From a virus: a stretch of DNA of 43,069 nucleotides. The notes below the pieces were generated by a model. The model saw nothing but the letters and a program-made list of their open reading frames with translations, searched no databases and was not told where the DNA came from. The stretch lies in the IMG/VR virus record IMGVR_UViG_3300026479_000020, positions 1 through 43,069 of that record; one strand, given 5' to 3'. Positions 1-37,588 of this stretch are shown piece by piece (the stretch's first letter is position 1; every line of letters starts with the position of its first letter). The translations under genes were made by a program, and so were the position numbers.

Positions 1-3000
1 TATTAGTAGTAATTACTTTATCAAAATCACTTTGAAAGTCTTTAAGAAACATCATATCTGAAACCATTAAAGTGCTTCCGTCTTTTTTAGCCTGTTTTTT
101 AGCTTGTCCCCAAACCTTTTTCATAGCTTTTTCAAACAAAGCTTCATTTTTAGGATCTTCTTTTCTCCATTTGTTTAAAGAAACACTTGATCTTTTACCT
201 TCTGGTAATCCTAATAACTCTGCTACTTTTGGTTTAAAGTCTGTATCAAAATCTAAAACATCTTGTCTATTTTTTCTTAAAGTAGATTTTCCTAATCCTG
301 GATGTCCCCAAATTATAGAATGTTTTTTATTTTGTAAAGCAGGATAATACAAAAACATCTTATCGACATCATAATCTGAACCAGTTTGCGTCACAATCTC
401 ATGTGGCAACATAATCTGACCTTTAGATGTTGGAGGTAATATTCTTTTTACTATTAAAGGTAACATAGATGATTTACCTTGTGTAGGGATACGGTATCCA
501 ATAATTTCTAACACAGATTTATCAGGCATTTTATCATGGTCTATAATACCGTTTTCATCAGCATATTCCAAAATACCTAATTTCTCTGCTTCTTTATAGG
601 AGATGGCGCACTCAGCAGCTTTCATATCTCCGTTCTCAAACGAATAATACTTCAACCTGTTTTCAGTATCATCACCGTACTCAGCTACTTGTACTGCGGC
701 ATCTCCTGGTAATCTTTGAGTAAGAACTCTTGATTTATATAAAGAAGCTAATGCGATTTCAAATTTCTTAGCGTAAGCTGGGAAAGATAAAGGCATTGCA
801 AAAGAATAATCTCCTGATTCTAATTGCTGTATTTCTAAAGCGATACTGTAATTATCTGGTAAATCTCTTGACTCAATTTGTTCTATAAGTAATTTTTGAA
901 CCTTTTTCAAAAACTCTAATTGGTTTTCTCTTGAGTTACTTTTACCATTCGCTAAGTATTTATCGTACCCTAAGTCCTCTCTAAGTTTTTTAGAAGCACG
1001 TTTGATTTTCTCTACATATACAGAGTTGGAAACAGACTTTATTTGTTCTGTTGTCATAGCTTCCATTCCTTCTACTGTATTGTACACAGCACCTGGATCC
1101 ATATTAGAAGTAATCAATTTAACAAATTGAGAACCGTCTTTTGGATCAGTACCTTTATCAGTTGGTAAAATAAATGGACTTCTTTCATTCTCTGAATAGA
1201 TAGTCTGAAGAGTCATGTTAGATAAATAAGATCCATCTTGAGAATAAGTATTTACACCTGACTTACCTACTTTTACAGCAGACTCCATATTCACTACATC
1301 TATAGGATCCATGTTAGAAAATTCACCAGTAGCTTCCATTCTTTGACGTAATTTATCTAAAGATGGAACTTGCTTAGTCATACCAGCGTATAAAGGAACA
1401 GTAGAGTGTTTAATTTGTTTAAACGACACTCTTTGTAATGCTACATCGTATTGTTTTCCCCAGTAAAAAGTTTTTAATGGTTTTAGTGCAAGTTTATTTA
1501 CCCAGTCTGGCCAAGAAGATACTGGAACTTCTTTTTTCCAATACTCATTATATGCTTTTTCGTGAGAGTGTTCTCCTTCCATAGTCCAATCACCTCTACT
1601 CATCATTGAATGACGGTGAGCTTCAAGAGTTGTGTATCCTTGTGCATCAGCAGAATTACTTCCTTTACGATACATTCTAACTATTTTGATAGCATCTTTC
1701 TTCTCTGTAGATAGAGAAGAAGTAGATTTTTTCATTCCATCTTCTGTAAGGTATGGTTTTGCCCAATTAGACTCACCAACTAAATTTTCAGCGATATTAA
1801 CTGCAGAATCTACAGACATAGAAGTTTCTATATCTTTCATAATAGCCATGGACATCTGCTTAGGTTTTCCGTACATTGAGTCTATTACATGATCGATACC
1901 TGGGGTAATAGTTTGGTAAGAACGTTTACCAGCATCTGTTACAACTGATAAGAACTCACCTTTAACACCATTGAACTCAGCATCATTTGATATATCTGCA
2001 GTTTTTGTTTTATACAGAGCTAAATCCCCCATTTGGAATTTGTTTATTTCTGTTCTCCAAACAAGTTCGTTCATTAAAAATTCAGAAACTTGGTCATCTA
2101 TCTTGTTTACTTGCTCACCATCTATAGTTACAGAAGTACCTCCAAAAGAATCTACCTTTACCATATCGGTATAGTAAATACCGTCTTTTTCAAATAAGAC
2201 ACCAGCTTTAACCATTCTATTTTTACCACGTAGAACTTCTCTATCTAAAAACGCATCTAAGGCTTTGTTAACTTTTGCGTAGTTTGTTTCTGTAGAGATT
2301 TCTTTTAAGCTTCCATCTGTGTTAAACAATCCGTAAGTAGAGAAGTTTAAATCAGGTATAGACATAAATTTCAATCCATTAGCAGCTTTTCTATTTAAAG
2401 TACCATCTGGATTAGTTCCTTTATAATGTAGATTTTCTACTAACTGGTCATCTCTTAAAGCTTCTGGACCGAACAATTGTTCCTGAGTAAGTCTAATACG
2501 AGCAGCTTCTTGCATTACATTTCTTTTCAAGACATGTTTTGCAGCTTCTTTTACATATTTTACTCCAATACCATTACTAATACTCATCTCAGCAGGTGCT
2601 TTAGCATTTTGTAATGTAGGAACTTTCATGTATAAAGACCTTCCTTTATCTGCTTTCGTACCCATACTTATATAAGAGTAACCTGTACTTTTTCTGTTAC
2701 CATTGTTTGCAAACATAGCCATACGTGTTAACCATGCTTGTTTTTCTATCATTTGGTCAAAAGAAGTACCTTTTCCTTTTTCTTTATCCTTAGCAGTATC
2801 AAGTTCGATTATATCAAACTCTTCTCTCATCTTAGGATTATTTTTTAATAACTCAAAAAATAGAGAACCATGTACTCCTAAATTACCATCTGGATTGTAG
2901 AATACATCTTTAGAATATGAGTCTTCCCACATCTTTTCGATATTTTCTACTGTAGAAACATCTTGTTTAAATTTAGAAATATAAGAGTTTAAGTTTATAG

Positions 3001-6000
3001 AATAAACCATTTTACCCTCACCATTTACAAATGAACCAGTGTATAAATCCGTAGATACATCTTTAACTAATTCAGCTATTTTAGTAATTGTTTTTAACTG
3101 ACCTTTATTCTGAGTAGAAACGTATGGATCAACTCCTTTTCCAGATTTTATTTTTTTAGTTTTTACATCATACCCAAGTTCATTCATAATAAATTTGAAT
3201 TTCCCTTGTACATAAGACTTATTAAAATCTTTTGGAGAATATTTAGTAGCAAGCATTTGAAGTACAGGAGCGTCAAACTCTATACCTATGAAAGAAAACA
3301 CTTCATTAATTGCTTTGTAATAATCTACTGGATTTTCTTGAAGCTTTTCATTACTCAATGTCTCATAAGAATCAGCCATTTTTTGAAGCACTTCTTTATT
3401 AACAGTAGCTGTTTGACCTTGCTCTTCAACAAATAAATTCTTAGCGTTTTTATTACGAGCCCATCCTTCTAATATCTGTTTTAAAACACCAGTACGATTT
3501 GTTTCAATAAGTTTCCACTCCATGTTTTCACCTGAAACAACTGTCATAAACTTTAACTGTGTTTTAGACATTACAGCTTTAAACTTATTTTTAAGTTCTG
3601 GAGACCAGTTTTGATACTCTGTATATACAGAGGAAATCATTGGGTTCCATGCTGATAACTCTTGTAATTTATCTTCCATCTCAGATATATCCACATCTGC
3701 TAACTTACTTGTAAGCATTGAATATACTTTATGAAAATCAATAAAAGTAGGAAGCATTGTAAACTTACTTCTTCCATTTGAAATAGTTTTACCTGTTTTT
3801 TTGTCTACTATTGTAGGAGTAGGAACAAAACTTAAAGCTATTTTAACTTCTGATGCTAATGTTTTCTTAGGATCACTTAAAGCAAAGTGTGAATTATGTA
3901 TTCTTTCAATAGATGTAGATTCGTTTTCACCTTCTTCAACTACTTCTTCACCAAATTCAAGGACTTCATTTTCTACTTTCTTAGCATCGTATTCTGTAAA
4001 TCCATCTGTTGTTTTTTGTCTTTTTACATTTGAACCGTGTAGTTTTAAACTATCGATTAATAAAGAACCAAACCCAGGATCTGAAACAATACCACCTTCA
4101 AATTTATCATTCCATTCAGAGTCTTGTAATGATTTTTCTAAATATCTACCTGATAATGTTTTATTAGCAGTAGGATTTTTAGAATTTAAAAATGTAGTAC
4201 CTTGTTTTAATAAAATGTCTCTTGTTTCATTAATAGCAGTCCTAACATCTTCTACATACTTATTAGATGTAATCATCTCAGTAATAGAAGTAGCAGTTGT
4301 TCTACCATCTGCAATCATTTTAGGTATTACTTTTCTCATCAATGCGTAACGCATTGTGCTTACCATATCATGTTTGAACTCTTCTGTGAATCCTTTTTTT
4401 CTTCTAAGTTTAAAATCATTTGGATTAAAATATTGCTTATCCATGATTGATTTTGCTCTTTCTGAAAACGTTACGTTACCATTCTTAATGTTTAAGAATG
4501 CTTTATTCATAATAGAATTAGAAAGGTAAACTGAATCTCTGTTCAACATCTGAGAACCTTTTATACGCATCGCTAAAATTGCTTTTCTAATTCTATCAAA
4601 GAATTTTTGAATAGCAATTCCTACTTTAGTTTTCTTTATTTTGCCTTTTGACTCTTCAGACTCCATAAAAGTTCTGAATGCTTCGGCCATTTCTTCTTCA
4701 TAATAAACTTCAGCTAACTCAGCTTCATTTTTATTAGGATATGTAGTTTTTAAATCTTGGTATTTTTGTGAGCGTTTATTTATTTCTCCAAATACTTTTT
4801 TAGCCGCTTTCATTAATACTTCTTTTTCTTTAGAAGTAGAAGCTAAATCAAGAACTAAGTGAAAAGCTTCGTGATAAGCAGTTCCTTTTTTACCATCTCT
4901 TGCTAAAAACACCATTCCATTTGAATAAGCACCGTATGCTTTTTCTCCTTTTATAAGAATAAATTTAGCTTGAGCCATTGGAGCTAAATGTTCTTCTCCG
5001 AATGTATCTATAATCCAGCTAATCTCTGTATCAGTTAAGATGTTCAAAGGATTTTCTTCAAATTTAGACTCAACTTTTCTAAAAACTAAGTCTTCATCAT
5101 TCGGATCTATATCCTCTGTATTGATTGTTTCTGTACCATCTAACTCTTTTTCTGGTTCTAACTCTTGTGTGTTATTATCAATTTCATTTTGAGTCGGATC
5201 TGAATCAATAACATTATCTGTTTCAGAAACTATTTCAATATTAGCAGGTGTAGCTTCTCCATCTGTATTGCTTTCGTTTTTAACTGCATTATCTTGCTGT
5301 TCTAAAGCTGTTAATTCAGCATCGTATTTAGCGTTGATTTTGTCTATTTCAGTATGTTCTTTTACATAGATCTTCTCATTTTTATAATCTCCTATTAAAT
5401 ATACAACATCATTAGTAAACACAGGCTTTGTAGTATTACTATTAGTAGTACTTGCGTTATGCTTTAATCCTGCTGTTTTTAAATTAGCTCTGGGTACTAC
5501 TGCAATATAAGGATCTCCACCTGCTTTTTCTGCAAAATCCATTACCACATTAAAGCCTTTAGTTCCATTTCCAAAGTATATACTGCTATACTTAGGATTA
5601 TTATTATATCCTTTTTGACTTAAAACACCAGTTTCAGCAGCATTTATAAATCCTTCTTTAGATAAACTTCTATAAGCTAATTGATCATTTATATAATTAG
5701 ATTGATTTTCAGGTGTTAACTCTACTGAATTTTCTATACTTAACAACTCTACCTGCCTTCTTCTTTTTATATCAGCTTTAGTTTTAGCTTTAGCTACATC
5801 CAAACTATCTATATCAGATGTTACTTCTACTGAAGGAGTAACAATTTGAATTTTTTTATTTACTGGAATTAATTGCGCCTTAGAATTTGTAAACTTTTGT
5901 CCTGTGCTTAATCCTGTAACATCGGTAGTAAGTATATTCTTACCTTCTAAGTATTCAGAGTATGAATTATATGTTTCTCCAGTAGTGTGGTCAATTGTAG

Positions 6001-9000
6001 CTGTGTTGCTAACAATATTCTTTTTACTGACATCATAATTTTTACTCATTATAGCATCCTTAATAACTTGTCTGAAGTCTTGTAATGCTTCAAGCATCTC
6101 AGGAGTTAAAGTCTTAGGGCTTTTAGGATCGAAATATTCTTGCTTTGGTTTTCCGTCATCATTAAGTAATGGCTCACCATAGTTGTATTCTGGATTACCA
6201 GTTGATGATTGGTAAACAGTTGCTAAAAATCTTTCACCATTTAAAGCTTGTCTTAAATTGTTAATTCCTTTATCTCCGAAATCATAAAATCCAATAGATA
6301 ATATTTGACCACCTACTCTTAATTTTATCTCTCTATTGTTTGCAAAAAATAAAGGTCCATTAGCATTTTCAGAGTCTTCAATATTATGATTAGCTATTGT
6401 TCCTACAATACTTTTAATAATAGCTGCTTTATCATTACCTTCTAATTCACTATTTAAAAGAATATTATCTATAATGTGATCTGCATCTTTTTCTGATACT
6501 TTTTTAGTTTCTAAACGTACAGGAACTTTATCACCATTAGCAGAAGTAACCATTGCGTAAACTCTACCATCTTCTACTTTTGCTTCATATTCTTTTTCAA
6601 CGCCATTTTCCGTATAAATAACAGTACCATTACTACCAACACCTAATGTAAAATCTTTTCCAAAAGCACCTAAAACTCCTATTGGATTTTTAGCAGATGA
6701 ACCATCTGGTTGCTTTTGATTTATAACAAATCCTTTTCCTTTTTTATGTATCATAACTGGTACAGCTCCTGATTCATCTGAATAAACATCAAAGTTTGTC
6801 CTTAAATCGGATAACTCTTCTACGCTGTCAGCAGCAATTTTTTGTACTGGAGGACCATCTGGAGTTAAATGAACTGTAATAGGTTGATTATGTTCACCTG
6901 CGTCTGGGAATATCTCTTGTCCAGCTTTTTCATGTCCTTGAGGATATACATATTGTCCTTTTTTAAGATAAACTACCTGGTCTTTTTTTGCATTTTCAGG
7001 TTTAACCCAGTCTTCAAACGCTAATACTTCGCTTTCTAATACAGGAGTCTCGTTTAAATCTGCTGGAACTATATAAATAGGCTCACCTTTCATACCTTTT
7101 GTTAGCAAAGGAACTGGAGCAGATGATTTATCGTATCTAAACTTATCCATTCCAAACCCTTGCCTTATTATAGGCATACCAGTTGTCTCATCCAATTTAA
7201 CTGGATACCAATATAAAGGAATAGCAACTGCTTTCTCAGCTTCTGTAAGATTGTCTTCTGTTTTTCTTACATACTTAGTAGCTAATTTTGGAATAGGATT
7301 ACCATTTTCATCAGTAGCTTTTACAAAGAAACCTTTTTCACGAACACCCATCTCGATGTTATTAGAAGTAGGAGTCTCAGGATTATCTATCTGCAGAGAT
7401 ATAAATTGCGTATCAACTGTTGTTACAGCATCTACTGGCATTGCTTGTAACTGAGGTTGCATTTTAGCTTCAGCCTCTTCTTCAATATCTTCTTCTTCTG
7501 TAGTTTCAACCTCTGAATCAAGATCTAAAACAGGGGTGTTCTCTAAACCGTACTTAGCAGAATTATCACCTTCTTTTTCAGATAACTGAACGATACGAAT
7601 ATCTTTAGTATCTAACATTGCATCTGGATCAACTCCAGCTTCTTCTAATTCTTTATCTCTTTGTTCTAAAGCAGCTTCCTTATCTTTTAATGCTTGTTCA
7701 AAAGATTGTAGTTCTTGTACTCGTTCATTCAGTATCGCTGCTTCAGATGACTTTATATCATCTCCCAGTAAATCTAAGTTATCAGTGATTTCTTTTACTG
7801 TATTAGCCTCTTCTAAAAGCATTTTAGTACCATCAGATAATTCTGCTTTTCTTTCTGGAGATAAATTTTCTAATGTTTTATTAGGAACTTTTTCCCCCAA
7901 ATCTTCTGCAGTAGCAGTAGGCTCTGTTTCTTGTACAGTTATTTTACCATCTTCACTCAGACTTACTGTTGGAACACCTAATATTTCATTTAAACTCTGT
8001 TGTCCTTCAGAAGGAGCATTTTGAGTAGGAGCTTCTTCTTTTTCATTTGTTGGAGCTTCTACTTTTTTACCTGGTTGTTTTTTAGCAGCCTCAGCAACTT
8101 TTTTAGCAGCTTTAGGTGTTAATCCTAATTCTTGTTTTAACGACTCTGCCTGTGTATCTATATGCTGTAATACTTCAGTTTGAGCTTGTTTTCTTTTATT
8201 GTCTAAAGCAATAGTTTCGTTTTTAGAAACCTTTTCTAAAAAGTCATATAAAACATCTAAACGAGAATTTTTCTCAGGATGATTTGATTTCTGTACAGAG
8301 TTAATTAATGATTGAATACCATCACGAGTTAAACCATTATCGATTATTTCATCTTGTATTCTTTCTCTAAACGCATCTTCCCTACGTCTTTCAAATCTAT
8401 TTTTACGAATATCATCTGCTTTATTTTTAGCAGCCCTTTTACCTTCAGATTTTTTAACCATCTGAATATACTCTGAATCTAATTCATTTTGTATTTTAGA
8501 ATTTTCATCAGCTTCTTTTTCATTATCTCTTTTTAACTTTAAAGCAAAGGCAAAGGCATCATTTTCTAATGCTAATTCTTCATCTGACATAGATGCATAC
8601 GAAGGAGATAACCCAGAACGTATTTCGTTCATAGCTTTTTCAACTTCTTGTATGTTTTCTTTTGCTTCTTTTGTGTATTTTTTATAATTCAAAGCAGTAG
8701 CCCTATTAACTACTGCACTACTTTGTAGTTTAGGAGAAGCAAAACTAAATTTATTATAAGCATCTTCTGTTTCTTCTATAAACTCAATAGCACTTTCAGC
8801 TCTTTCTTTATAGTTAGAAGGCATACCTCTTTCATCAATAGCTTCTTTCTCAGGAATACTTGCCATGTGTTTATACGCTGCAAGTAAAGACTCAGTAGTA
8901 CCGTCTTGCAAACTGTTTTTAACCTGACTCCATAACATATTATCAGCAGCTGCACTTACTTTTGCTTGCGCTTGTTCTATTTTCTTTGTGTCTCCCTCTG

Positions 9001-10513
9001 CTTCTGCTTTTTCCAGTTCTTTTTCGGCTGCTTTTTGAGCTTCAGCTTTTGTTTTGAAATCCGCTGCAGAAAGAAAAACACTTGATAATGTTCCATTTTT
9101 AGCACTGCTTTTCTTTGCCATATTATCAATCTCAGCAATACGTGCTTCTTGTTTTTCAAACTGTTCTAATTCTTGTTTGTACTTACCAGACGCTTTTCTG
9201 TACGCCATACCACCAGCTCCTTGACCAATACCACCAATAGCCCCAAGCGTACCAGCTTCCCAGAAACTTGCATCATCAGCATATTTAGCCATAGAATTAC
9301 CGTCAGCTAACGCTGATAAAAGATTATCCTTACCTCCTCCAGCAATCGCTTTTTTACCTTCTCCTTCAGCTATAAAGTTTATTTGTTCTTCTCCAAATTC
9401 TTGTACACCCTCAGCACCTAATGTTCTTAGTCCTGCTTTTGAAAATAATTTTTTAGGGGCCTCAAGTAAAGTTCTTGATGCTAATGTTTGAGCACCAGCA
9501 CGAGTAAACATACTTGCACCAGTTAAATTCAAAGCAATATTTGCTCTGTTAATGGCAATTATATTAGAAGCGTCATCAGCAGCTTTGGCTTTAGCTTCTT
9601 CTTCAGTAGCACCTAAAGAAATATAATGATCTAAATTTTCTTTGTAAACTGTTGAAGCTGACATTACTGCTTCTGTTTGATTCAGAGCTGTAGCTGTAGC
9701 TAATGTGGATGTTCCTTTAGCTAATTTTTGTACCCACTTAGCTGCGTTAGCTGTTAATCCAGCAGCACCAGCACCAAACGTAGCACCTACTACAGCACCT
9801 TGCGCTGCAAAAGCTCCTATTGAAGCAACTAAAGAAGAACCGTTTTCAAACCACCATGCTGGATCTCCAATATCAAAAGCCTCTCCTGGCTTTTCTCTGT
9901 AAATAGCAAAAGAGTCATTCATTGCATTTTTATACTCTTCCATTTTATCTGAAATAGGATTACCTACTTCATCATCTTGATTGTAGTAATCTTCTATATC
10001 AACCATAGAAGCCATACCACCTACAAAATCAAATATAGCACCACCCACAGCTCTAACAACCGCATTACCAGCTTGCTCAACTCCACTTTGTCCTTGAGCT
10101 CTACGTAAATCTAACTCTTGAGTACCAACCCAAGGTTTAACTTGGTCCATATAATCAGAGTAAGCATCTACATCTATGTCATATACTTTATTTGCGTTTA
10201 ATCTCGCACCAGCACCTTCTTCGTATTTTCCTGGATTCTTTTTATAATCTTCAAGCTGTGCTCCTCTAAGAGGTAGACCTGTTGAAGGATCTAAAACAGT
10301 TTCATTTAAAGCCTCAGAAATAGTTTTTTTCTTTTCTTTTTCACGCTTTGCTGGTCCAGGACCAGGATTAGCAGGAACACTTTTTTGAAATTGTTCTTCT
10401 TGTTGTTTACGAAGTCTTTCTAATTCTTGTTCTGAATAAGCTACACCAGTAGCAGGATTGATTGCGCCAGCCCCATAGCCACCGTCTGTATTGAACATTA
10501 TATTTTCTTCCAT
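1..10513 (-). CDS. Giant virion RNA polymerase-like polyprotein (partial, C-terminus outside window)
   Basis: The frame is open from ATG at 10513 to the left edge, about 3504 codons, with no stop. Seen in order: Ala/Gly-rich hydrophobic stretches near residues 215-260 and 414-440; charged coil-like sequence about 450-950; a beta-rich unassigned region about 1010-1600; an ART-like YRSLSKEGF stretch at 1614; an acidic linker about 1740-1820; HEAFH at 1881-1885 with downstream glutamates at 1939-1944, a zincin-type metallopeptidase signature; a long unassigned stretch; DGSQFVK at 3126-3132; GYRIPTQ at 3339 and GSDYDVDKM around 3380-3384; then a P-loop GHPGLGKS at 3403. GYRIPT followed 39 residues later by DxDxD mimics the beta-prime double-psi barrel of cellular RNA polymerase, where three Asp bind Mg2+. 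Known crAss-like phages package such a polymerase in the virion. The likely role is transcription of early genes after ejection. The peptidase may process the chain (inference). The exact domain borders and the C-terminal half of the barrel are not visible. Confidence 0.85.
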   Translation of the reverse strand, partial: MEENIMFNTDGGYGAGAINPATGVAYSEQELERLRKQQEEQFQKSVPANPGPGPAKREKEKKKTISEALNETVLDPSTGLPLRGAQLEDYKKNPGKYEEGAGARLNANKVYDIDVDAYSDYMDQVKPWVGTQELDLRRAQGQSGVEQAGNAVVRAVGGAIFDFVGGMASMVDIEDYYNQDDEVGNPISDKMEEYKNAMNDSFAIYREKPGEAFDIGDPAWWFENGSSLVASIGAFAAQGAVVGATFGAGAAGLTANAAKWVQKLAKGTSTLATATALNQTEAVMSASTVYKENLDHYISLGATEEEAKAKAADDASNIIAINRANIALNLTGASMFTRAGAQTLASRTLLEAPKKLFSKAGLRTLGAEGVQEFGEEQINFIAEGEGKKAIAGGGKDNLLSALADGNSMAKYADDASFWEAGTLGAIGGIGQGAGGMAYRKASGKYKQELEQFEKQEARIAEIDNMAKKSSAKNGTLSSVFLSAADFKTKAEAQKAAEKELEKAEAEGDTKKIEQAQAKVSAAADNMLWSQVKNSLQDGTTESLLAAYKHMASIPEKEAIDERGMPSNYKERAESAIEFIEETEDAYNKFSFASPKLQSSAVVNRATALNYKKYTKEAKENIQEVEKAMNEIRSGLSPSYASMSDEELALENDAFAFALKLKRDNEKEADENSKIQNELDSEYIQMVKKSEGKRAAKNKADDIRKNRFERRREDAFRERIQDEIIDNGLTRDGIQSLINSVQKSNHPEKNSRLDVLYDFLEKVSKNETIALDNKRKQAQTEVLQHIDTQAESLKQELGLTPKAAKKVAEAAKKQPGKKVEAPTNEKEEAPTQNAPSEGQQSLNEILGVPTVSLSEDGKITVQETEPTATAEDLGEKVPNKTLENLSPERKAELSDGTKMLLEEANTVKEITDNLDLLGDDIKSSEAAILNERVQELQSFEQALKDKEAALEQRDKELEEAGVDPDAMLDTKDIRIVQLSEKEGDNSAKYGLENTPVLDLDSEVETTEEEDIEEEAEAKMQPQLQAMPVDAVTTVDTQFISLQIDNPETPTSNNIEMGVREKGFFVKATDENGNPIPKLATKYVRKTEDNLTEAEKAVAIPLYWYPVKLDETTGMPIIRQGFGMDKFRYDKSSAPVPLLTKGMKGEPIYIVPADLNETPVLESEVLAFEDWVKPENAKKDQVVYLKKGQYVYPQGHEKAGQEIFPDAGEHNQPITVHLTPDGPPVQKIAADSVEELSDLRTNFDVYSDESGAVPVMIHKKGKGFVINQKQPDGSSAKNPIGVLGAFGKDFTLGVGSNGTVIYTENGVEKEYEAKVEDGRVYAMVTSANGDKVPVRLETKKVSEKDADHIIDNILLNSELEGNDKAAIIKSIVGTIANHNIEDSENANGPLFFANNREIKLRVGGQILSIGFYDFGDKGINNLRQALNGERFLATVYQSSTGNPEYNYGEPLLNDDGKPKQEYFDPKSPKTLTPEMLEALQDFRQVIKDAIMSKNYDVSKKNIVSNTATIDHTTGETYNSYSEYLEGKNILTTDVTGLSTGQKFTNSKAQLIPVNKKIQIVTPSVEVTSDIDSLDVAKAKTKADIKRRRQVELLSIENSVELTPENQSNYINDQLAYRSLSKEGFINAAETGVLSQKGYNNNPKYSSIYFGNGTKGFNVVMDFAEKAGGDPYIAVVPRANLKTAGLKHNASTTNSNTTKPVFTNDVVYLIGDYKNEKIYVKEHTEIDKINAKYDAELTALEQQDNAVKNESNTDGEATPANIEIVSETDNVIDSDPTQNEIDNNTQELEPEKELDGTETINTEDIDPNDEDLVFRKVESKFEENPLNILTDTEISWIIDTFGEEHLAPMAQAKFILIKGEKAYGAYSNGMVFLARDGKKGTAYHEAFHLVLDLASTSKEKEVLMKAAKKVFGEINKRSQKYQDLKTTYPNKNEAELAEVYYEEEMAEAFRTFMESEESKGKIKKTKVGIAIQKFFDRIRKAILAMRIKGSQMLNRDSVYLSNSIMNKAFLNIKNGNVTFSERAKSIMDKQYFNPNDFKLRRKKGFTEEFKHDMVSTMRYALMRKVIPKMIADGRTTATSITEMITSNKYVEDVRTAINETRDILLKQGTTFLNSKNPTANKTLSGRYLEKSLQDSEWNDKFEGGIVSDPGFGSLLIDSLKLHGSNVKRQKTTDGFTEYDAKKVENEVLEFGEEVVEEGENESTSIERIHNSHFALSDPKKTLASEVKIALSFVPTPTIVDKKTGKTISNGRSKFTMLPTFIDFHKVYSMLTSKLADVDISEMEDKLQELSAWNPMISSVYTEYQNWSPELKNKFKAVMSKTQLKFMTVVSGENMEWKLIETNRTGVLKQILEGWARNKNAKNLFVEEQGQTATVNKEVLQKMADSYETLSNEKLQENPVDYYKAINEVFSFIGIEFDAPVLQMLATKYSPKDFNKSYVQGKFKFIMNELGYDVKTKKIKSGKGVDPYVSTQNKGQLKTITKIAELVKDVSTDLYTGSFVNGEGKMVYSINLNSYISKFKQDVSTVENIEKMWEDSYSKDVFYNPDGNLGVHGSLFFELLKNNPKMREEFDIIELDTAKDKEKGKGTSFDQMIEKQAWLTRMAMFANNGNRKSTGYSYISMGTKADKGRSLYMKVPTLQNAKAPAEMSISNGIGVKYVKEAAKHVLKRNVMQEAARIRLTQEQLFGPEALRDDQLVENLHYKGTNPDGTLNRKAANGLKFMSIPDLNFSTYGLFNTDGSLKEISTETNYAKVNKALDAFLDREVLRGKNRMVKAGVLFEKDGIYYTDMVKVDSFGGTSVTIDGEQVNKIDDQVSEFLMNELVWRTEINKFQMGDLALYKTKTADISNDAEFNGVKGEFLSVVTDAGKRSYQTITPGIDHVIDSMYGKPKQMSMAIMKDIETSMSVDSAVNIAENLVGESNWAKPYLTEDGMKKSTSSLSTEKKDAIKIVRMYRKGSNSADAQGYTTLEAHRHSMMSRGDWTMEGEHSHEKAYNEYWKKEVPVSSWPDWVNKLALKPLKTFYWGKQYDVALQRVSFKQIKHSTVPLYAGMTKQVPSLDKLRQRMEATGEFSNMDPIDVVNMESAVKVGKSGVNTYSQDGSYLSNMTLQTIYSENERSPFILPTDKGTDPKDGSQFVKLITSNMDPGAVYNTVEGMEAMTTEQIKSVSNSVYVEKIKRASKKLREDLGYDKYLANGKSNSRENQLEFLKKVQKLLIEQIESRDLPDNYSIALEIQQLESGDYSFAMPLSFPAYAKKFEIALASLYKSRVLTQRLPGDAAVQVAEYGDDTENRLKYYSFENGDMKAAECAISYKEAEKLGILEYADENGIIDHDKMPDKSVLEIIGYRIPTQGKSSMLPLIVKRILPPTSKGQIMLPHEIVTQTGSDYDVDKMFLYYPALQNKKHSIIWGHPGLGKSTLRKNRQDVLDFDTDFKPKVAELLGLPEGKRSSVSLNKWRKEDPKNEALFEKAMKKVWGQAKKQAKKDGSTLMVSDMMFLKDFQSDFDKVITTN

Positions 10514-10523
10514 GATAATACTT

Positions 10524-10587
10524 TTTACTAAAAACAGGTAGATCAAAAATACAAAATATCCTTTAATCTATAACTGTTTTTAGTAAA
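10524..10587. repeat. 14-bp perfect inverted repeat upstream of the giant gene
   Basis: TTTACTAAAAACAG at 10524-10537 is exactly complementary to CTGTTTTTAGTAAA at 10574-10587, with a 36-bp AT-rich spacer. It fills most of the 88-bp gap between the hydrolase stop and the giant gene ATG. It could be a long-loop RNA hairpin in the leader, a protein-binding palindrome, or part of a terminator/attenuator. There is no clear T-tract on the minus-strand exit side. Confidence 0.75.
10544..10551 (-). promoter_or_regulatory. Promoter-like TATTTTTG box for the giant gene
   Basis: TATTTTTG fits the Bacteroidota -7 consensus TAnnTTTG and lies 30 bases upstream of the ATG, inside the spacer of the inverted repeat at 10524-10587. 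No clear -33 TTTG element is visible at the usual distance, so this is a candidate only. Confidence 0.4.
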
Positions 10588-10601: not shown

Positions 10602-11429
10602 TTAATAACTACCAGTATAAACTTTTTCCAAAACATCTCCCATTTCTGCTAATCTCTCTGAATAAGGAGTAAGAGCCACTCCGTTTTTACTTGTTGCTGA
10701 TTCAGCTATCATAGGTTCTCCTTGGGAGTTATAAACTATTATACCAATATGGTCAATACCATACTTTCTATTTTTATCAAACCCATGGTCTCCAGTATCA
10801 AATGCTATCACCATTCCTTCTTTTAAATCTGATTTTTTAATAGATTTCCAATCTGTATAAGTTTTATGGTCTTTAGAATTAACCCATAATCCTTGAGAAC
10901 TTAAATCATCTGTTGGAACTGATTTATTTAAGTCTGTAAGTACTTTATAAACAAACCCCGAACAGTCTATACTATTCCCACTTTTATCTCCAAGATTATA
11001 TGTTTTATCTCGCATAGAAGCAACAGAACGAACTATAGCTTTACTTGTACTATTTGATGGTAGTTGATTAAAAGCACTCACAATTTCATCTCCTTTTAAA
11101 GATGTTCCAGAAGGCTTTTCATTTTGCTCCAGAGTTTGCTGTGCGTATGCTTCAGCTTTAATATCATTCAAAGTTTTTGGAGTTGCTCCATTTTTTTCTA
11201 CCATATTTGATTTAACTACATTTGATTTACCTTTTAAGTTATCAGTAGTCAATTCTTTTGCAGGAGTAACAGGAGCAGGTTGCTGATAAGCTTGCTGTTT
11301 TATTTGGTCTAATGTAATTCCAATATTTTGCTTTGGAATTACAGGTTGTAATGGTTTTTGTGGTGCTGGTGGCTCTTGTTCTTGTATGCTTGAAGTAGTA
11401 AGAACAGGAGGAGTATTAGGCAATGGCAC
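10602..11429 (-). CDS. NlpC/P60-family peptidoglycan hydrolase
   Basis: The 275-aa product has a Pro/Gln-rich, probably disordered first ~110 residues and a C-terminal NlpC/P60 domain. The catalytic cysteine is Cys156 in SIDCSGFVYK and the catalytic histidine is His227 in GIDHIGII; the third polar residue is not certain. This family cuts stem peptides of peptidoglycan. Placed between the internal virion proteins and the giant polymerase, it is more likely a virion-carried wall-penetration enzyme than a late endolysin (inference). The start used is GTG at 11429, which has AAGGAGG seven bases upstream (11437-11443), a rare good Shine-Dalgarno in this genome. No ATG, GTG or TTG occurs further upstream in this frame before a TGA at 11487-11489. 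That TGA overlaps an A9 run in the preceding gene, so expression as a -1 frameshift extension is also possible. Confidence 0.85.
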   Translation of the reverse strand: MPLPNTPPVLTTSSIQEQEPPAPQKPLQPVIPKQNIGITLDQIKQQAYQQPAPVTPAKELTTDNLKGKSNVVKSNMVEKNGATPKTLNDIKAEAYAQQTLEQNEKPSGTSLKGDEIVSAFNQLPSNSTSKAIVRSVASMRDKTYNLGDKSGNSIDCSGFVYKVLTDLNKSVPTDDLSSQGLWVNSKDHKTYTDWKSIKKSDLKEGMVIAFDTGDHGFDKNRKYGIDHIGIIVYNSQGEPMIAESATSKNGVALTPYSERLAEMGDVLEKVYTGSY

Positions 11430-18048: not shown

Positions 18049-21000
18049 TTATCTTGCTGAGAACCTGTAAAAAGTTTTCAGGTAGTGTAATAAGAATCTT
18101 CTATCATTTATATTATCAAATTCAAAATCGGCAATCATAATCTTATCACGAAGCCTATCTTTAAACTCTCTGTTTTTATCTAAATTAACAGGATTAAAAA
18201 TATCTATATCTACTGGAGTAGCTCCAAATGAGTTCAATACTGCGTTTCTTGCAATAGCTGATTGCCACTCTCTGTCTACTCTTCGTATATTATTTTTTGG
18301 AACAATACTTACCCAGTCTGTATTTTGATACGTAGTATTACAACGAATCCTACTAAATGTTTCTTGGTCTATCTGAATAGGATTAGAATCATTAGAAAAT
18401 ACCTCTGTGTAGTATCCAAAGTTATCAAACACTTTAGTAATACCTTTACCATCATTAATGATAAGTTGTAATGTAGAATTAAAAATGTTACCATAGAACT
18501 CACCGTACTTTCCTTTATTATGTCTATACAGAGCCTCCGAATTTATTGGGTTTGGAGATAGTATATTCACACCATCGTTTAAGTATATCGTAGGAGCGTG
18601 ATCGTAGAATCCTGTGAATACTTCATACGCCTCGTTATATACAATAGTCTCTTCTACAATCTCCATGATTTGTACATCGAATAATAAAGCTGTTTCACCT
18701 AAGTATTTCCCGTAAAGGTCTTGATCTATTATACCAGTAGCATCTACCGCACCATTGAATATTGCATCAGATCCGATAAATGAACCAACAGACATACGTA
18801 TGTATACAAAATCCGTATCAGAAGTTGTTTCTGATATTAAAATACTTTGGTCAACACCTTCTACATTAATTTCAACATAGTTACCTATGGATATAGATAA
18901 TATACCTAAACAAGTCTTCGAAACTTTTAATGCATTTGTCATGATATTATCACTTGGAAAAGCCTGGAATGTGTAACGAGCAGATGCTTTACATAAAGAA
19001 ATAGGCTGTCTGTTTAAGAATGTAAACCAAACTTCATTAAAACGTGTTGACCAAGTAGAATGTATACCCTTATTAATCAATGGGTTATCATTAGTTAAAA
19101 GATTACCAACCAGTTTATCAAAGAACCATGGATTCATACCTGCTTGCATTGAAACTGGTACTAATTGTTTTCCTTTAATCGAATACATTTGTTTATGGTA
19201 TGAGTCTATAAACATTAAATTCGTATTCGTAGAGATTGGAACCCATTGATGGAAACATCCTATATCAGTAGAGATGTATTCGAAATCATGCAGTACATCT
19301 CCAAAACCAATTTGTAGACTTCCTGCAGGGCCGCCTGTAATTGATCCCCTTGGATTTATTAATAAGTACCCACATCCGTGATCTTGGAAAAAGAATATCA
19401 TATCATTATGATTGATAAGTCTATTTACAGGTCCTAAACTTCCTTCCACATCTTTGTATAAGAAAGCGTCAAACTGTCTCCAGTTATCGATTACCTCACC
19501 ATTAATCTTTCCTCGTGAGGCATAGATTCTATTATCAAATGTTTCCAGTAAAGGAACTCCAACAGGTCTACCTATAAAGGATATAAAGTCGTCTTCCCTA
19601 CTATACAGAGACTCTGCTTCGTAGGTATCATGTGCATAAGTTATATCACTTGCAGGAGGGTAACTACCGTCAGGTTTTGCTTTGTTCAAGAAGTGTCTTC
19701 CGTTTCTTAATGTAGTATTGAACGTACTAACTAAAGGAACTACAACTCCATCTCTGGATGTATATGTGACAGGATCAATCGGCTCTTTACCATCCACACG
19801 AGTAAAATCGTATTGTGCGTGATAAACATCTCCACCAAAAACACTGAATGTATTTAACGCTGATGAACCTGATTCTTTCTGAATGAACCCTCCAGTACTC
19901 TGGTACACGTTATTAGCTCTCGCTGCTTGAGTGTTACCACCGTATTGGTCTAATAATTCTCTTTCATAGGTTACCAACATAGGTCGCCCATTTAATCCTC
20001 CACTCTGTGTAGATGTATTTCCAGGAAGAAATAATTCTACTCCTCCTCCTAATGTAACAAATAGACATAAACCACCATCTACCTGTTCTTCACTATTTGA
20101 CATATCTGCGGTTGGAGGCGTACTGTTCGTAAACTGTACGGTAGGAGATAGTGTTGGTATAGCTGATAATACTGCTCCTGGTTGAATCTCTCTTGTAAAC
20201 TCTAATGGTATTGTTTTCTTACCATTACTTCTTACTTGATCTCCATCTGTAGGGTCTCCATAACCATTTTCAGTTCCTGGGTGTATTACAATCTTCGTTG
20301 GTTCAGAAACACCACAATTCAACATAGTATTGTTGATAGTTAAATCCTCTTCTATAATCTCTGTAAATGTACCGTCCACACGTATACGATCTCCTAACGA
20401 ACTTCCAACCGTATTAAAGAATTGTAACTCTGGGCTATAAATAACCAAACTCTTCTTAGCGTCTGCTGGATATAAAGTAAGATCATCATAATCAGGATAA
20501 GCATCTTTTCTTCCTTCTACCATTGGTCCAGAGACATTCCACCTTAATAAATTTCCTCCCTTTCTTGGGAACAAGTATAAGTTATCATCACTTTCTACTT
20601 GGCATAGTTGATGAGCGATTCCCTGAGCAAGTTTAGTTCTATCCGATACTTCCCGTTTTACTCTTACTATTTCGTACCCACTTATGCTGTCTAAAAGGTT
20701 AGCGGGAATTTCTATATCAAACTCTAATCCAAGTTGATTTAATTCTACTCTGTCCCCTAAAGAATCGGAAACAGATTTCAACATATCAGCACCACCTACA
20801 TAAGGACCACCAGCAATAGTTTCTCCCCAAGGGTAGTTACCATAAGCTCGTAGATTTCTACGCATTTCCCATCTTTCTGGAAATTTAATATCACCGATCC
20901 AGTTTACAAATCCTGGATTCCCTGCTAAATCATATAGTACTATTCCAAATCTATATACTTCTCCAGGAGAATACCCTCTAAAGATTACATTAACGAAAGG

Positions 21001-22839
21001 ACTCTTATGATTCAGAGGTGTAGAGATGACTGGATACTTTTCATCATTCGTTCCAAACTCATATACAGTACTCTGTTTTCTTGACTCTAAGAGTGGTGCA
21101 GCACTGTTCATCATATTTGCAGGATCATAAAAGTATCCTTCAGTATTTGCACCAGTTATTTCGGATTGAGTTATGAACTTATATTTAACATATGGTCCTT
21201 CCCCACCAAGAGTAACACCATCAGTCTGCCATTTAAAAGGTAGGAAATTACTATTCCAATCTACTTTATTATAAGGATTGATAGCGTCTCTTACTACAGA
21301 GGATACACTGACATCTTCTGGATCTTCGTACCCCCAATCTGCATCAGCAGTATTCAACCCAGGTACATAACTTTTAATACTACTTAACTCTCCTGTTACT
21401 GAGTAAGAGTTACCATTATTATATGCTGGGTTACCACTTATGTTATTGTCCACCAAAGAGTTACCAAAACGGTATGCTCTTGCGTGAAACTTCAAAGTAT
21501 CATTTTTAGGTGCAGAGATATTCCCTACTATAAGTCTATTGTCTTTGTAACTGAGTGTTTTTGCTTTTTCAAAAGGAACACCAAATATCTTATACTCTGT
21601 ATCAGACAAACTAAAAGAACTTTCCTCTCCTGTATGTGTAATGACAATTGAGTTAGAAGAAGGTATTTCCAATGACTCAAAGACATTAATCTCTGGAGTA
21701 GACTCAGCTGCCCCATAGTATAATGATATTAATTCTATAGTATCGTAAGTACTATCAATATCTTTAATAGATACAGATACACTCTTAGTGGTAACAGTTG
21801 AAGGATTTGTTCCAGAGTATTCTCCCAATTGACTCCATTCTGTTCCTGACTCACTATTAAGTAATACATTGATAAGTCTACTTGCTGGAGACACTTTAGA
21901 TTGTGCTCCTGTAGAACTTGACAATCTATATGCATATTGATAGATACCTGCTTTCAAAGTACCGCCCGAATTAATTGAATTTAATACTGGTCTTGAGAAA
22001 TCGATTGAAGGAGTAAGACTTAGAAATGCAGGATCGACACCTAAACTTGTACTTATGGAAGCTACATTTAAAGCTCTTACATTGTTATGGTTATCTGTGA
22101 AATAAGTTCTTTGAATCTCTTCGTTCTCATAACGAGCTACCATCTCGATCGGATGTTCTGTAGAGAATCCTATGTCATCATGGGTATATCTAATTTCAAT
22201 ACTATATGTATCAAATACTTTGTCGTAAGTTGCTACCCATACTTGCCCATTTCCGCCTTTTTTTGAGGTATCATTTGTAGTACAGATTATTAATTGATCT
22301 CTTATTTCAGTATATCCTATGATTTGTAAGTCTGTTTGACGAGTCGCAAATTGAGTGCCTATTGTGTAGTTAGATTGTCCAAGAGAATTCACGGATAGTA
22401 TAGCTGCATTCTCTGAATAAACAGATACAGAATTTGCTGATGTTCGAACTACTTTGATTCCCATTATAGACAAAGCAGATGTAGGATCGTTTGCAACATC
22501 CATTACCTGATTAAAATAGTCTTCAAACCCACCAGATATTAATTGGAAAGCCTCTGTTATAACGCCTGCCGCAGTTTCTACTGTAAAGTTATCAGTTACA
22601 CCTGCTATTGGTGCAGCTACACCTACAATAGGTGAAACCTTAAACACACTTGGGGATGTAGGGATAGTCAACTCAAGAGTGTTACCTTTTACATTTGCTA
22701 AGGCTCCTCCAGAATCTTCTCCATCATCACTTAGTCTGAAGTTCCGAGCATCTCGATATGACGTAGGTTTAAGCCTATCCTTACTAATAGATTTATTCAT
22801 TCCTTCTTCAAAGGAATTTGTCTGCATCTTTCTTCCCAT
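18049..22839 (-). CDS. Large tail protein, crAss-like stabilization protein family
   Basis: This is a 1596-aa protein. Its N-terminus (QTNSFEEGMNKSISKDRL, then YRDARNFRLS and GALANVKGN) follows a pattern I recognise from the large stabilization/tail proteins of crAss-like and other Bacteroidota phages: a short start, a 'GMN-D/S' turn, then 'RNFR...GA..N..G'. The rest is beta-rich, with many Tyr, Asn, Gly and Ser residues, typical of a nozzle or tail-needle structure; no enzyme motif is seen. The C-terminus ends in a basic, helical stretch. It follows two connector-like genes (250 and 147 aa) with a six-base gap, so it is probably co-translated with them and assembled at the tail end below the portal rings. 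An alternative start is the internal ATG five codons in. The family name is inference by resemblance. Confidence 0.7.
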   Translation of the reverse strand: MGRKMQTNSFEEGMNKSISKDRLKPTSYRDARNFRLSDDGEDSGGALANVKGNTLELTIPTSPSVFKVSPIVGVAAPIAGVTDNFTVETAAGVITEAFQLISGGFEDYFNQVMDVANDPTSALSIMGIKVVRTSANSVSVYSENAAILSVNSLGQSNYTIGTQFATRQTDLQIIGYTEIRDQLIICTTNDTSKKGGNGQVWVATYDKVFDTYSIEIRYTHDDIGFSTEHPIEMVARYENEEIQRTYFTDNHNNVRALNVASISTSLGVDPAFLSLTPSIDFSRPVLNSINSGGTLKAGIYQYAYRLSSSTGAQSKVSPASRLINVLLNSESGTEWSQLGEYSGTNPSTVTTKSVSVSIKDIDSTYDTIELISLYYGAAESTPEINVFESLEIPSSNSIVITHTGEESSFSLSDTEYKIFGVPFEKAKTLSYKDNRLIVGNISAPKNDTLKFHARAYRFGNSLVDNNISGNPAYNNGNSYSVTGELSSIKSYVPGLNTADADWGYEDPEDVSVSSVVRDAINPYNKVDWNSNFLPFKWQTDGVTLGGEGPYVKYKFITQSEITGANTEGYFYDPANMMNSAAPLLESRKQSTVYEFGTNDEKYPVISTPLNHKSPFVNVIFRGYSPGEVYRFGIVLYDLAGNPGFVNWIGDIKFPERWEMRRNLRAYGNYPWGETIAGGPYVGGADMLKSVSDSLGDRVELNQLGLEFDIEIPANLLDSISGYEIVRVKREVSDRTKLAQGIAHQLCQVESDDNLYLFPRKGGNLLRWNVSGPMVEGRKDAYPDYDDLTLYPADAKKSLVIYSPELQFFNTVGSSLGDRIRVDGTFTEIIEEDLTINNTMLNCGVSEPTKIVIHPGTENGYGDPTDGDQVRSNGKKTIPLEFTREIQPGAVLSAIPTLSPTVQFTNSTPPTADMSNSEEQVDGGLCLFVTLGGGVELFLPGNTSTQSGGLNGRPMLVTYERELLDQYGGNTQAARANNVYQSTGGFIQKESGSSALNTFSVFGGDVYHAQYDFTRVDGKEPIDPVTYTSRDGVVVPLVSTFNTTLRNGRHFLNKAKPDGSYPPASDITYAHDTYEAESLYSREDDFISFIGRPVGVPLLETFDNRIYASRGKINGEVIDNWRQFDAFLYKDVEGSLGPVNRLINHNDMIFFFQDHGCGYLLINPRGSITGGPAGSLQIGFGDVLHDFEYISTDIGCFHQWVPISTNTNLMFIDSYHKQMYSIKGKQLVPVSMQAGMNPWFFDKLVGNLLTNDNPLINKGIHSTWSTRFNEVWFTFLNRQPISLCKASARYTFQAFPSDNIMTNALKVSKTCLGILSISIGNYVEINVEGVDQSILISETTSDTDFVYIRMSVGSFIGSDAIFNGAVDATGIIDQDLYGKYLGETALLFDVQIMEIVEETIVYNEAYEVFTGFYDHAPTIYLNDGVNILSPNPINSEALYRHNKGKYGEFYGNIFNSTLQLIINDGKGITKVFDNFGYYTEVFSNDSNPIQIDQETFSRIRCNTTYQNTDWVSIVPKNNIRRVDREWQSAIARNAVLNSFGATPVDIDIFNPVNLDKNREFKDRLRDKIMIADFEFDNINDRRFLLHYLKTFYRFSAR

Positions 22840-36151: not shown

Positions 36152-37588
36152 TTACTTAGTAGCTGTACAGATTAATTCACCACACGCAAATGGGTTTTTA
36201 ACCATAATACCACACTCAGACAACATGTGTACTGAGTAACCATCTAAGTTAGATGATCTCATTGTTCCAACAGATTTTGCAGGATTTCCGTAAGGATCGA
36301 TTGATCCAGCTTCATGCCACATAATCATGTCTGAATCTTTTTTGTACACCTTTTGGATGTTAGATTCTCCACCTTGAGTACCGAAGTCTAAGATAGTAAA
36401 TCTGTATGATTCAATTGGTCTACCAGTTTTCCAGTGTACCTGTCTGTTACGAACAGTGTTATCGTACAATGGTAAATGTTTCAATGTGATCTTAGTACCA
36501 TTCAATCCTTCATAAGTTTTGAATTGTCCACCTAATTTCAAATCTTGACCTTTACCAGTAACGAATACTGAATCAACAAGACGGTATTGGTTTACTGAAT
36601 CTCTCAACGCTTTGTCGAACTCAGCAAATCCGTATTCACCTGTAAATGCTACAAAGTGTCTGTCAGACTCTGGAGTAACATTGTAAGATAAATCGATTAA
36701 GAAATCACGGATGATGTTCTCAGTCAATTCAGAGTAGTAACGTTTATTCGCTGGAGCAATTTGCTCACGAATACCAGCTCCTTCAAATACTGGTAAACCA
36801 TTGTTACCTAACATATCTGTAGTTCCTGTTGGAGTTGAAGAGTACTCAGAGTACCATAAAGAAGCTTCAACCTCTCTGTACCATTGAGCCATAGCTTCCC
36901 ACTCAGCGAACTTAGTCCATAATTGAGTAGATTTTTTTGGATCTTCTGGATTTGCTAATGAGATAACTAAAACGTCAGTCGCTGCAGAACGTGTAACTGT
37001 GTAAGACTTTCTCAAAGTCGTTAAATGATTTCTCATTTTGAACGGAGTAGAGAAAGTAGTATTTCCACCAGTTGAAAATTCAGGTACAGTTGTGTACTCT
37101 TTTGAAAGTTGTTTACCAACTTGTAATAACGCAGGATCTACAAATTTTGTAGCATCGTTACCAGTCAATTTAAGAGTATAAACCCATCCTTGACCATTAT
37201 GAAATGGATCTTCCATTACACGAGCACGGTATTCTCTGTTGTCGAATACTAAAACATCTTGATTAGCGAACCATTTTTCTTCCAAAAGAACCTGGAAAGA
37301 TTGCTTATTAAGACCAGCATTAGCACCAGCTAAAACACCAACGATTTTAATCGCTTTTTCGTCATCTCCTTGTAAAAACCAGTCATACTCACGGTTTCCT
37401 AATTCTTTTGATCTTCCCATTCCAGAAGTCAAATATTGTAAAGGGTTTTGCCCTTGCATACCAAAGATTCTGTGTACGATTGTACTAATAACCTCTGGTT
37501 CTGTTAAAAACGCTCTTGAAAGGTGGTTTTGTTTTGTAAAACCAGAGTTCCATTTCGTTTTATAAAGTTGTAATCCGTTTACTGACAT
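36152..37588 (-). CDS. Major capsid protein (HK97-fold, crAss-like)
   Basis: The 478-aa protein is of the size usual for crAss-like major capsid proteins. The N-terminal arm (SVNGLQLYKTKWNSGFTKQ) leads to LQYLTSGMGRSKELGNREYD (residues 50-69), a segment of the type found in these capsid proteins, followed by alternating strands and the helical AEWEAMAQWYREVEASLWYS. It lies between an acidic scaffold-like gene and the adaptor genes, as expected. It has its own 16-base leader (37598-37613) and a hairpin behind it (36106-36141), signs of high, separate expression. The HK97 fold is an inference from family resemblance and position; virions would contain it as the most abundant protein. Confidence 0.85.
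   Translation of the reverse strand: MSVNGLQLYKTKWNSGFTKQNHLSRAFLTEPEVISTIVHRIFGMQGQNPLQYLTSGMGRSKELGNREYDWFLQGDDEKAIKIVGVLAGANAGLNKQSFQVLLEEKWFANQDVLVFDNREYRARVMEDPFHNGQGWVYTLKLTGNDATKFVDPALLQVGKQLSKEYTTVPEFSTGGNTTFSTPFKMRNHLTTLRKSYTVTRSAATDVLVISLANPEDPKKSTQLWTKFAEWEAMAQWYREVEASLWYSEYSSTPTGTTDMLGNNGLPVFEGAGIREQIAPANKRYYSELTENIIRDFLIDLSYNVTPESDRHFVAFTGEYGFAEFDKALRDSVNQYRLVDSVFVTGKGQDLKLGGQFKTYEGLNGTKITLKHLPLYDNTVRNRQVHWKTGRPIESYRFTILDFGTQGGESNIQKVYKKDSDMIMWHEAGSIDPYGNPAKSVGTMRSSNLDGYSVHMLSECGIMVKNPFACGELICTATK

Follow-up and report, generated by a model that had tools for sequence, protein, structure and literature searches.

We analysed a 43,069-base window, positions 1 to 43,069 of the IMG/VR virus record IMGVR_UViG_3300026479_000020, and found in this crassvirus genome a giant open reading frame (ORF) whose predicted product is a virion-type RNA polymerase (RNAP) chain with a P-loop kinase-like domain nested in its catalytic region. 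The catalytic centre of two-barrel RNA polymerases is highly conserved, and the domain starts ten residues past the catalytic DYDVDK motif, with RNAP sequence on either side. Among relatives, the loop that holds it shows the pattern of an insertion hotspot, with four kinds of insert, and it seems to vary in length more than any other loop of the surveyed core. The anatomy itself is nearly certain from sequence and predicted fold: the polymerase core is open and conserved, and one of its loops tolerates a kinase-like insert that is itself intact. The fuller explanation, a virion RNAP chain carrying the kinase domain as a co-packaged passenger accessory enzyme, is probable. The features that carry the finding are the following (aa, amino acid positions).

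2..10546, minus strand: giant ORF; TTG start at 10546, ATG at 10513 or 10498, 3' end outside the window
2..4066, minus strand: RNA polymerase catalytic subunit, from aa ~2161; matches crAss001 gp50 and phi14:2 gp66 and continues past the window
359..376, minus strand: catalytic DYDVDK (DxDxD), aa 3391-3396; three Asp and the Lys invariant in alignment A4 (65 rows)
2..331 (aa 3406-3515), minus strand, plus L001:11600-11770: P-loop kinase-like domain, ~167 aa, aa ~3406-3572
281..307, minus strand: Walker A motif GHPGLGKST, aa 3414-3422

An earlier note on this DNA, made from the letters alone, had described a single open frame of at least 3504 codons. The frame is real, but our analysis adds that it lies on the minus strand, from 10546 to 2, with 3,515 codons from the TTG at 10546 and 3,504 from the ATG at 10513; at the base composition of the window such an open run has a chance probability of log10 P ~ -135. 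Read on the plus strand, frame 1 of positions 1-10513 has stops throughout. The ORF runs off the record, and the extension past its edge that the note had proposed came from a search with the last 533 residues of the window ORF product, which retrieved the contigs L001 and L002. Over the 11,600 shared bases compared, both agree 100% with the window, and they complete a protein of 4,424 aa (L001:1055-14329). Residues are numbered here as in P0001, in which residue n of the earlier note is residue n+11.

The same note had recognised an RNAP core of the crAss-like virion type, with a polymerase signature at its residues 3339-3384, and had suggested comparing a structure prediction with the phi14:2 virion polymerase. 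Both points held. The catalytic DYDVDK lies at P0001 3391-3396, and an RNAP profile (A1) matched the phi14:2 structure (PDB 6VR4) with an E-value of 1.1e-54. A 1,020-aa model of the core was predicted with a predicted local distance difference test score (pLDDT) of 83 and a predicted template modelling score (pTM) of 0.81. This model has the same fold as 6VR4 (Foldseek E 3.4e-30; Z 27.0, 739 residues aligned, 3.5 Å), and it also matched the structure of P23-45 gp96 (Z 9.5). The 6VR4 match, made for the core as a whole and not barrel by barrel, implies two double-psi barrels in one chain; a PF00623 search of the window record gave no match. Sequence upstream of the insert is polymerase, matching crAss001 gp50 and others (143 phage records), and so is the sequence downstream, matching crAss001 gp50 and phi14:2 gp66 (49 records).

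The nested domain, which begins at window position ~331, was overlooked by the earlier note. Folded alone, the insert reached a pLDDT of 90 and a pTM of 0.83, and the H-P-x-x-G-K of its Walker A motif together with two later Arg residues is invariant in 14 of 14 copies. Its model aligned with shikimate kinases (Z 10.3, 3.3 Å, 146 aligned), adenylate kinase (Z 9.5) and dephospho-CoA kinase (Z 9.5, Foldseek E 1.6e-4); because these kinase rows are tied, a class (P-loop kinase) can be named and not a substrate, and fold families missing from the structural listing are not thereby excluded. By its Walker A motif and predicted kinase-like alpha/beta fold, the insert fits the P-loop kinase superfamily. 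In PHROGs it matched phrog_4182, a family of unknown function (E 4.2e-9), as did 12 of the 14 members of the P-loop alignment A5, and in the BFVD structure collection Foldseek gave one close match, cr124_1 (E 3.2e-12), the others being mixed and at E 8e-5 or weaker. Neither phmmer of the insert against the PDB nor a PADLOC search with the domain returned anything useful, and a profile (A2) against the PDB gave only chance-looking rows. A joint alignment of RNAP and P-loop sequences (A3) was rejected because the insert's own DFDTD attracted the polymerase DxDxD: in each of four joint settings 0 rows were correct (64 polymerase rows judged in three of them, 14 in one), compared with 64/64 when only RNAP rows were aligned. 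A4 (RNAP) and A5 (P-loop) were used separately.

That an assembly or frame artefact joined the P-loop segment to the polymerase has next to no probability. It is true that the window's contig ends within the insert and that another phage of the same metagenome number (L010, 3300024221) has a homologous domain. Nevertheless, the left junction agrees in three IMG/VR records and the right one in two, which show 3 differences from each other over 21.6 kb; the frame is open throughout, and the L010 copy is only ~69% identical in DNA. As a separate observation, L010 (IMGVR_UViG_3300024221_000011) and L002 (IMGVR_UViG_3300024221_000018) carry the P-loop domain at different places, in ~54% identical copies.

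Empty versions of the site are found in close relatives. The loop that follows DxDxDK and a short strand has 209 residues here, compared with 43-44 in L021-L024, L026 and L027, which are 36-42% identical over the query. In a tree of 152 cores calculated with the loop removed, L001 and these six sisters form a clade of 7 with support 1.0.

The domain also occurs in other phages. Eight contigs (L005-L012) hold copies with 52-58% identity to the insert, and L013 has a fragment; in DNA the insert is ~69% identical to the copies in three compared contigs, while the remaining matching pieces of the carrier proteins are 22-34% identical, with one 48-residue piece at 40%. Among 20 other carrier loci the domain could be placed in an ORF in 18 (L113 and L114 gave no ORF match), and in all 18 it lies outside this loop: before, between or after other domains, or in a neighbouring gene. 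These 18 are not all independent events, since the domain has the same position in L009, L010 and L013. The giant ORF holds the only placement inside a polymerase core among the carriers seen. A pattern search of the genome_contigs collection (84,980 species) yielded 64 matching stretches, none of them a relative. Because the placements vary, the copies are far more alike than the rest of the proteins, and the family was not found in that collection, the P-loop domain looks like a phage-borne exchangeable module. A recurring linker of the form GVEELFDSNPELANEVYEALGF was seen in L012/L087 (one contig), where the P-loop domain follows directly, in L029, where the linker comes after a NADAR domain, and also in L066; this linker is perhaps a recombination seam.

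These placements bear on whether the kinase domain acts in cis, sensing or converting nucleotides near the active site or acting on RNA ends and so coupling the polymerase to the nucleotide state of the cell. We consider this unlikely. The position of the domain, ten residues behind DxDxD in the catalytic barrel, its kinase-like fold with an intact Walker A, and its presence in the same ORF as the RNAP core in the carriers L005, L008, L009, L010, L105, L108 and L109 would all suit such a role. However, the location outside the loop in the 18 placed carriers argues that no fixed geometry with the active site has been selected and, therefore, that a position beside it is not needed for function. 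Equally, unrelated domains fill the same loop in other phages, and the six sisters have just 43-44 residues there.

To ask how the loop varies, we surveyed the best 80 of 517, 546 and 539 relatives from three RNAP-core scans, together with other fetched loci. This gave 160 non-redundant cores, in 158 of which the loop was measured (L044 and L105 were unmeasurable); L213 was then dropped, leaving 157. Loop lengths ran from a minimum of 18 residues through a median of 52.5 to a 95th percentile of 195 aa, with fewer than 60 residues in 85 loops, 60-83 in 10 and at least 84 in 62. All 62 loops of at least 84 aa were scanned against Pfam at E 1e-3, and three of them carried a recognisable domain:

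L029:11327-12553: NADAR in the polymerase loop; Pfam E 9.6e-15 and, in a second scan, 1.1e-14
L199:7465-8163: DUF7831 in the polymerase loop; Pfam E 3.2e-35
L065:11348-13903: GNAT-like domain plus HEYAHH in an 860-residue polymerase loop; Pfam GNAT E 1.9e-4, below the curated cut-off

A single L31 match in another long loop was judged to be chance. Like L001, each of L029, L065 and L199 has shorter-loop sisters (loops of 52, 43 and 73 aa; supports 0.83, 1.0 and 1.0), and four separate domain gains at this loop, in L001, L029, L065 and L199, are therefore the simplest reading of the sequences. L196, the sister of L065, is 50% identical to it and has the 43-aa loop. As a control, sites between columns filled in >80% of rows were examined over a core of ~660 residues in 152 sequences. 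These were the sequences of the tree, 152 of the 158 (L213 and L018 had been dropped by hand and four had no flank). Insertions of at least 100 residues occurred in 41/152 in this loop and in 0/152 at any other core site, where the largest was 82. We take this pattern to mark the loop after DxDxD as an insertion hotspot. The kind of domain is not tied to the site: in cr126_1 a NADAR domain stands at the N-terminal end of the RNAP protein. L213 (391 aa) had been considered as a further loop insert and was rejected, its extra length being an intein-like segment farther downstream; judged by eye, this segment follows AGKDG, downstream of DxDxD.

Alternatively, the insert could bring the phage nothing: it would then be a hitch-hiking mobile stretch of coding DNA, neutral or selfish, that a loop on the surface tolerates. 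A loop that is naturally variable in length would accommodate one, the domain sits at several places in giant proteins, and the insert has a lower content of guanine plus cytosine than the gene (27.5% vs 32.6%). These points are outweighed in our view, and we hold the idea to be very unlikely: 14 diverged copies have kept the Walker A motif and further residues, the reading frame is maintained, codon usage is not foreign, Pfam showed no splicing, homing or intein family among the insert's matches up to E 10, and recognisable enzyme domains recur at this one site.

We return to the passenger reading, which runs as follows. A P-loop kinase-like domain has been inserted in the loop directly after DxDxD and the next strand, and the polymerase, judged by its sequence and predicted fold, remains intact around it. 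By the pattern of four kinds of insert, the loop serves as a hotspot for attaching exchangeable enzyme domains. By homology to the crAss001 cargo, the kinase domain would be packaged with the polymerase, in a fixed ratio, and ejected together with it. Once in the host cytoplasm it would act early in infection, presumably on a nucleotide-like small molecule. A bolder version, possible but doubtful, treats the region as an evolvable docking loop near the catalytic centre. Exchangeable effectors, whether kinase-like, NADAR, DUF7831 or acetyltransferase plus peptidase-like, would become part of the polymerase through it; each injected molecule would bring one counter-defence or metabolic enzyme, and here a nucleotide-kinase-like unit may feed or gate the active site.

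Several observations weigh against the passenger reading. Of the 62 long loops, as many as 58 gave nothing in Pfam at E 1e-3; the loop of L001, whose P-loop domain has no Pfam model, is one of them. Among the sampled loops each type of insert was found in a single phage only. The survey covers the best 80 of 517, 546 and 539 relatives, not all crassviruses. L213, absent from the control, has its intein-like insert of ~300 residues elsewhere in the core and would count there as a large insertion. L025 is also near by raw identity (38%) and has a 111-aa loop with no recognised domain, though it falls outside the clade. The 1,020-aa model places the insert, and with it the kinase relative to the active site, with low confidence, because no rows of the alignment covered that domain. 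The matches to shikimate, adenylate and dephospho-CoA kinases differ by no more than 1 Z unit. Finally, the nested domain and the chain are known here from sequence and predicted fold.

To map the rest of the giant chain, hidden Markov models (HMMs) built from its segments were searched against the crAss001 and phi14:2 proteins, and its hydrophobicity was scored, which added the following features.

9149..10294, minus strand: N-terminal conserved domain, aa ~85-466; HMM, corresponding to crAss001 gp47 aa 61-511, E 1.2e-36
9740..9832, minus strand: most hydrophobic stretch, aa 239-269, Ala/Gly/Val-rich; Kyte-Doolittle 19-mer maximum 1.64
4250..5200, minus strand: zincin-like region, aa ~1783-2099; HEAFH at 4859-4873; corresponding to crAss001 gp47 aa 2068-2250, E 3.9e-54

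The N-terminal HMM found 60 ORFs in 59 loci; the domain had no Pfam match at 0.01 and no credible PDB match. For aa 480-880 and most of 1030-1800, the crAss001 and phi14:2 proteins gave just one weak match. With the whole protein, phmmer against the PDB gave nothing useful, and the sole Pfam match, Terminase_4 at 776-823, was sub-threshold and taken as chance. On these comparisons the chain is a gp47-like half fused in front of a gp50/gp66-like catalytic polymerase, with the gp49-like gene separate, and one ORF thus holds the gp47-like domain, the HEAFH region, the RNAP and the P-loop domain, as in polyvalent proteins. In L022, L023 and L027 the gp47-, gp50- and gp49-like parts all lie in a single stop-to-stop ORF of 5,496-5,641 codons. 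The fused multi-domain chain proposed in the earlier note thus stands as regards a gp47-like half with HEAFH before the polymerase. Its travel as ejected cargo is likely by homology, because mass spectrometry of crAss001 virions detected the homologues gp47, gp49 and gp50, for which ejection and partial unfolding have been proposed (PMC10172136).

The earlier note had further read the chain as one that carries a peptidase and a membrane-active N-terminus, so that a zincin-like domain would cut the chain and hydrophobic N-terminal parts would take the polymerase across the envelope. As a whole we can follow this only tentatively, and on the doubtful side. The HEAFH that it placed at residue 1881 is present at P0001 1892-1896, followed by an EEEMAEAF stretch, so that HExxH is accompanied by a downstream Glu that may bind the metal. 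The region occurs in 67 loci (HMM) and in crAss001 gp47, which has its own HEAFH at 2157, and autoprocessing has been proposed for polyvalent proteins (PMC5512222). However, neither Pfam nor a PDB profile search gave a credible match to the region, leaving a zincin fold unconfirmed. Moreover, the six clade sisters (L021-L024, L026, L027) keep the region with WEAFR or WEAMR in place of HEAFH. Both zinc-ligand histidines are replaced in these sisters, which are probably a pseudo-peptidase clade, and processing by this domain therefore cannot be essential there. Five of them have stop-to-stop ORFs of 5.5-5.7 k codons and the sixth is cut by its contig end; L025, outside the clade, retains HEAFH. 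The peptidase assignment thus keeps its motif and downstream Glu, while the case for a processing role is weak. As for membrane passage, the 19-mer 239-257 is the most hydrophobic of the protein, as the earlier note had sensed, and 163-184 reaches 1.35-1.42, but the second stretch that it named (414-440) never exceeds 1.2. A single moderate stretch gives little support to a membrane-active N-terminus, and gp45/gp46 are the proteins proposed to form the channel in crAss001 (PMC10172136).

The giant RNAP chain itself is a member of a published kind and is not new. Large multidomain crassvirus transcription proteins have been published (PMC7886860), virion RNAPs fused to large proteins are mentioned for crAss-like and N4-related phages (PMC10770324), and chains that combine an RNAP with a peptidase have been described in N4-like phages (PMC5512222). 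The closest systems are phi14:2 gp66 (6VR4) and crAss001 gp50, which have the same DxDxD polymerase, fold and flanking blocks. Unlike the giant chain, these are separate proteins (2,180 and 2,412 aa) and not fused to a gp47-like half, and their loops of ~110 aa, among the 62 scanned, are not carriers of a recognised domain, whereas here a P-loop domain fills the loop. The virion RNA-polymerase-associated crAss001 gp47 shares the N-terminal domain and the HEAFH region but is encoded by a separate gene. The Suoliviridae giant proteins cr273_1, cr7_1 and cr1_1, and those of L022, L023 and L027, likewise have peptidase-like and RNAP regions in one coding sequence or ORF; the latter three differ from the giant chain in that the gp49-like part is included and the loop is empty, while in cr1_1 the gene that follows encodes a P-loop relative.

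Polyvalent proteins, including the N4 virion RNAP with its metallopeptidase, are likewise thought to deliver polymerase, peptidase and enzyme domains together, but with the domains side by side or interspersed as that work presents them (PMC5512222), and not nested in a catalytic barrel as here. P23-45 gp96 is likewise a two-barrel virion RNAP in a giant chain, but it is fused to a tape measure protein, and the parts of the source that concern it mention no nested kinase-like domain (PMC10770324). For two-barrel RNAPs in general, lineage-specific insertions in the double-psi beta-barrel A (DPBB-A) domain are reported there, which is in line with a nested domain, though no enzyme domain is named in those parts (PMC10770324). 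In the portion of the open-licence literature covered, we found no account of a crassvirus RNAP with an enzyme domain inserted behind its DxDxD, which is no proof of absence.

Crassviruses reach very high abundance in the human gut (PMC10172136). If our reading is correct, a loop that repeatedly accepts unrelated enzyme domains would show how far a conserved core can be remodelled, and would offer a route to deliver effectors in a fixed ratio with the polymerase. The stretch after DxDxD is a concrete place to seek unrecognised crassvirus effectors, and the cargo of large crassvirus transcription proteins becomes testable domain by domain.

Three further features lie elsewhere in the window.

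18049..22839, minus strand: crassvirus muzzle protein; Pfam PF25731, E 1.6e-144
36152..37588, minus strand: crassvirus major capsid protein; Pfam PF23898, E 4.7e-142
10602..11429, minus strand: NlpC/P60 gene, 275 aa; Pfam PF00877, E 2e-7; phrog_329 minor tail protein, E 7.9e-10

The capsid and muzzle proteins, both in the same genome, place the phage in the Crassvirales. The NlpC/P60 cell-wall peptidase gene adjoins the giant ORF on its upstream side. A 1,314-aa gene that matches gp49/gp65 starts 13 bases downstream of the giant ORF in L001/L002; near its start, at aa 54-147, the product of this gp49-like gene (L001:14343-18287) weakly matches ART-PolyVal (E 1.1e-3, below the cut-off).

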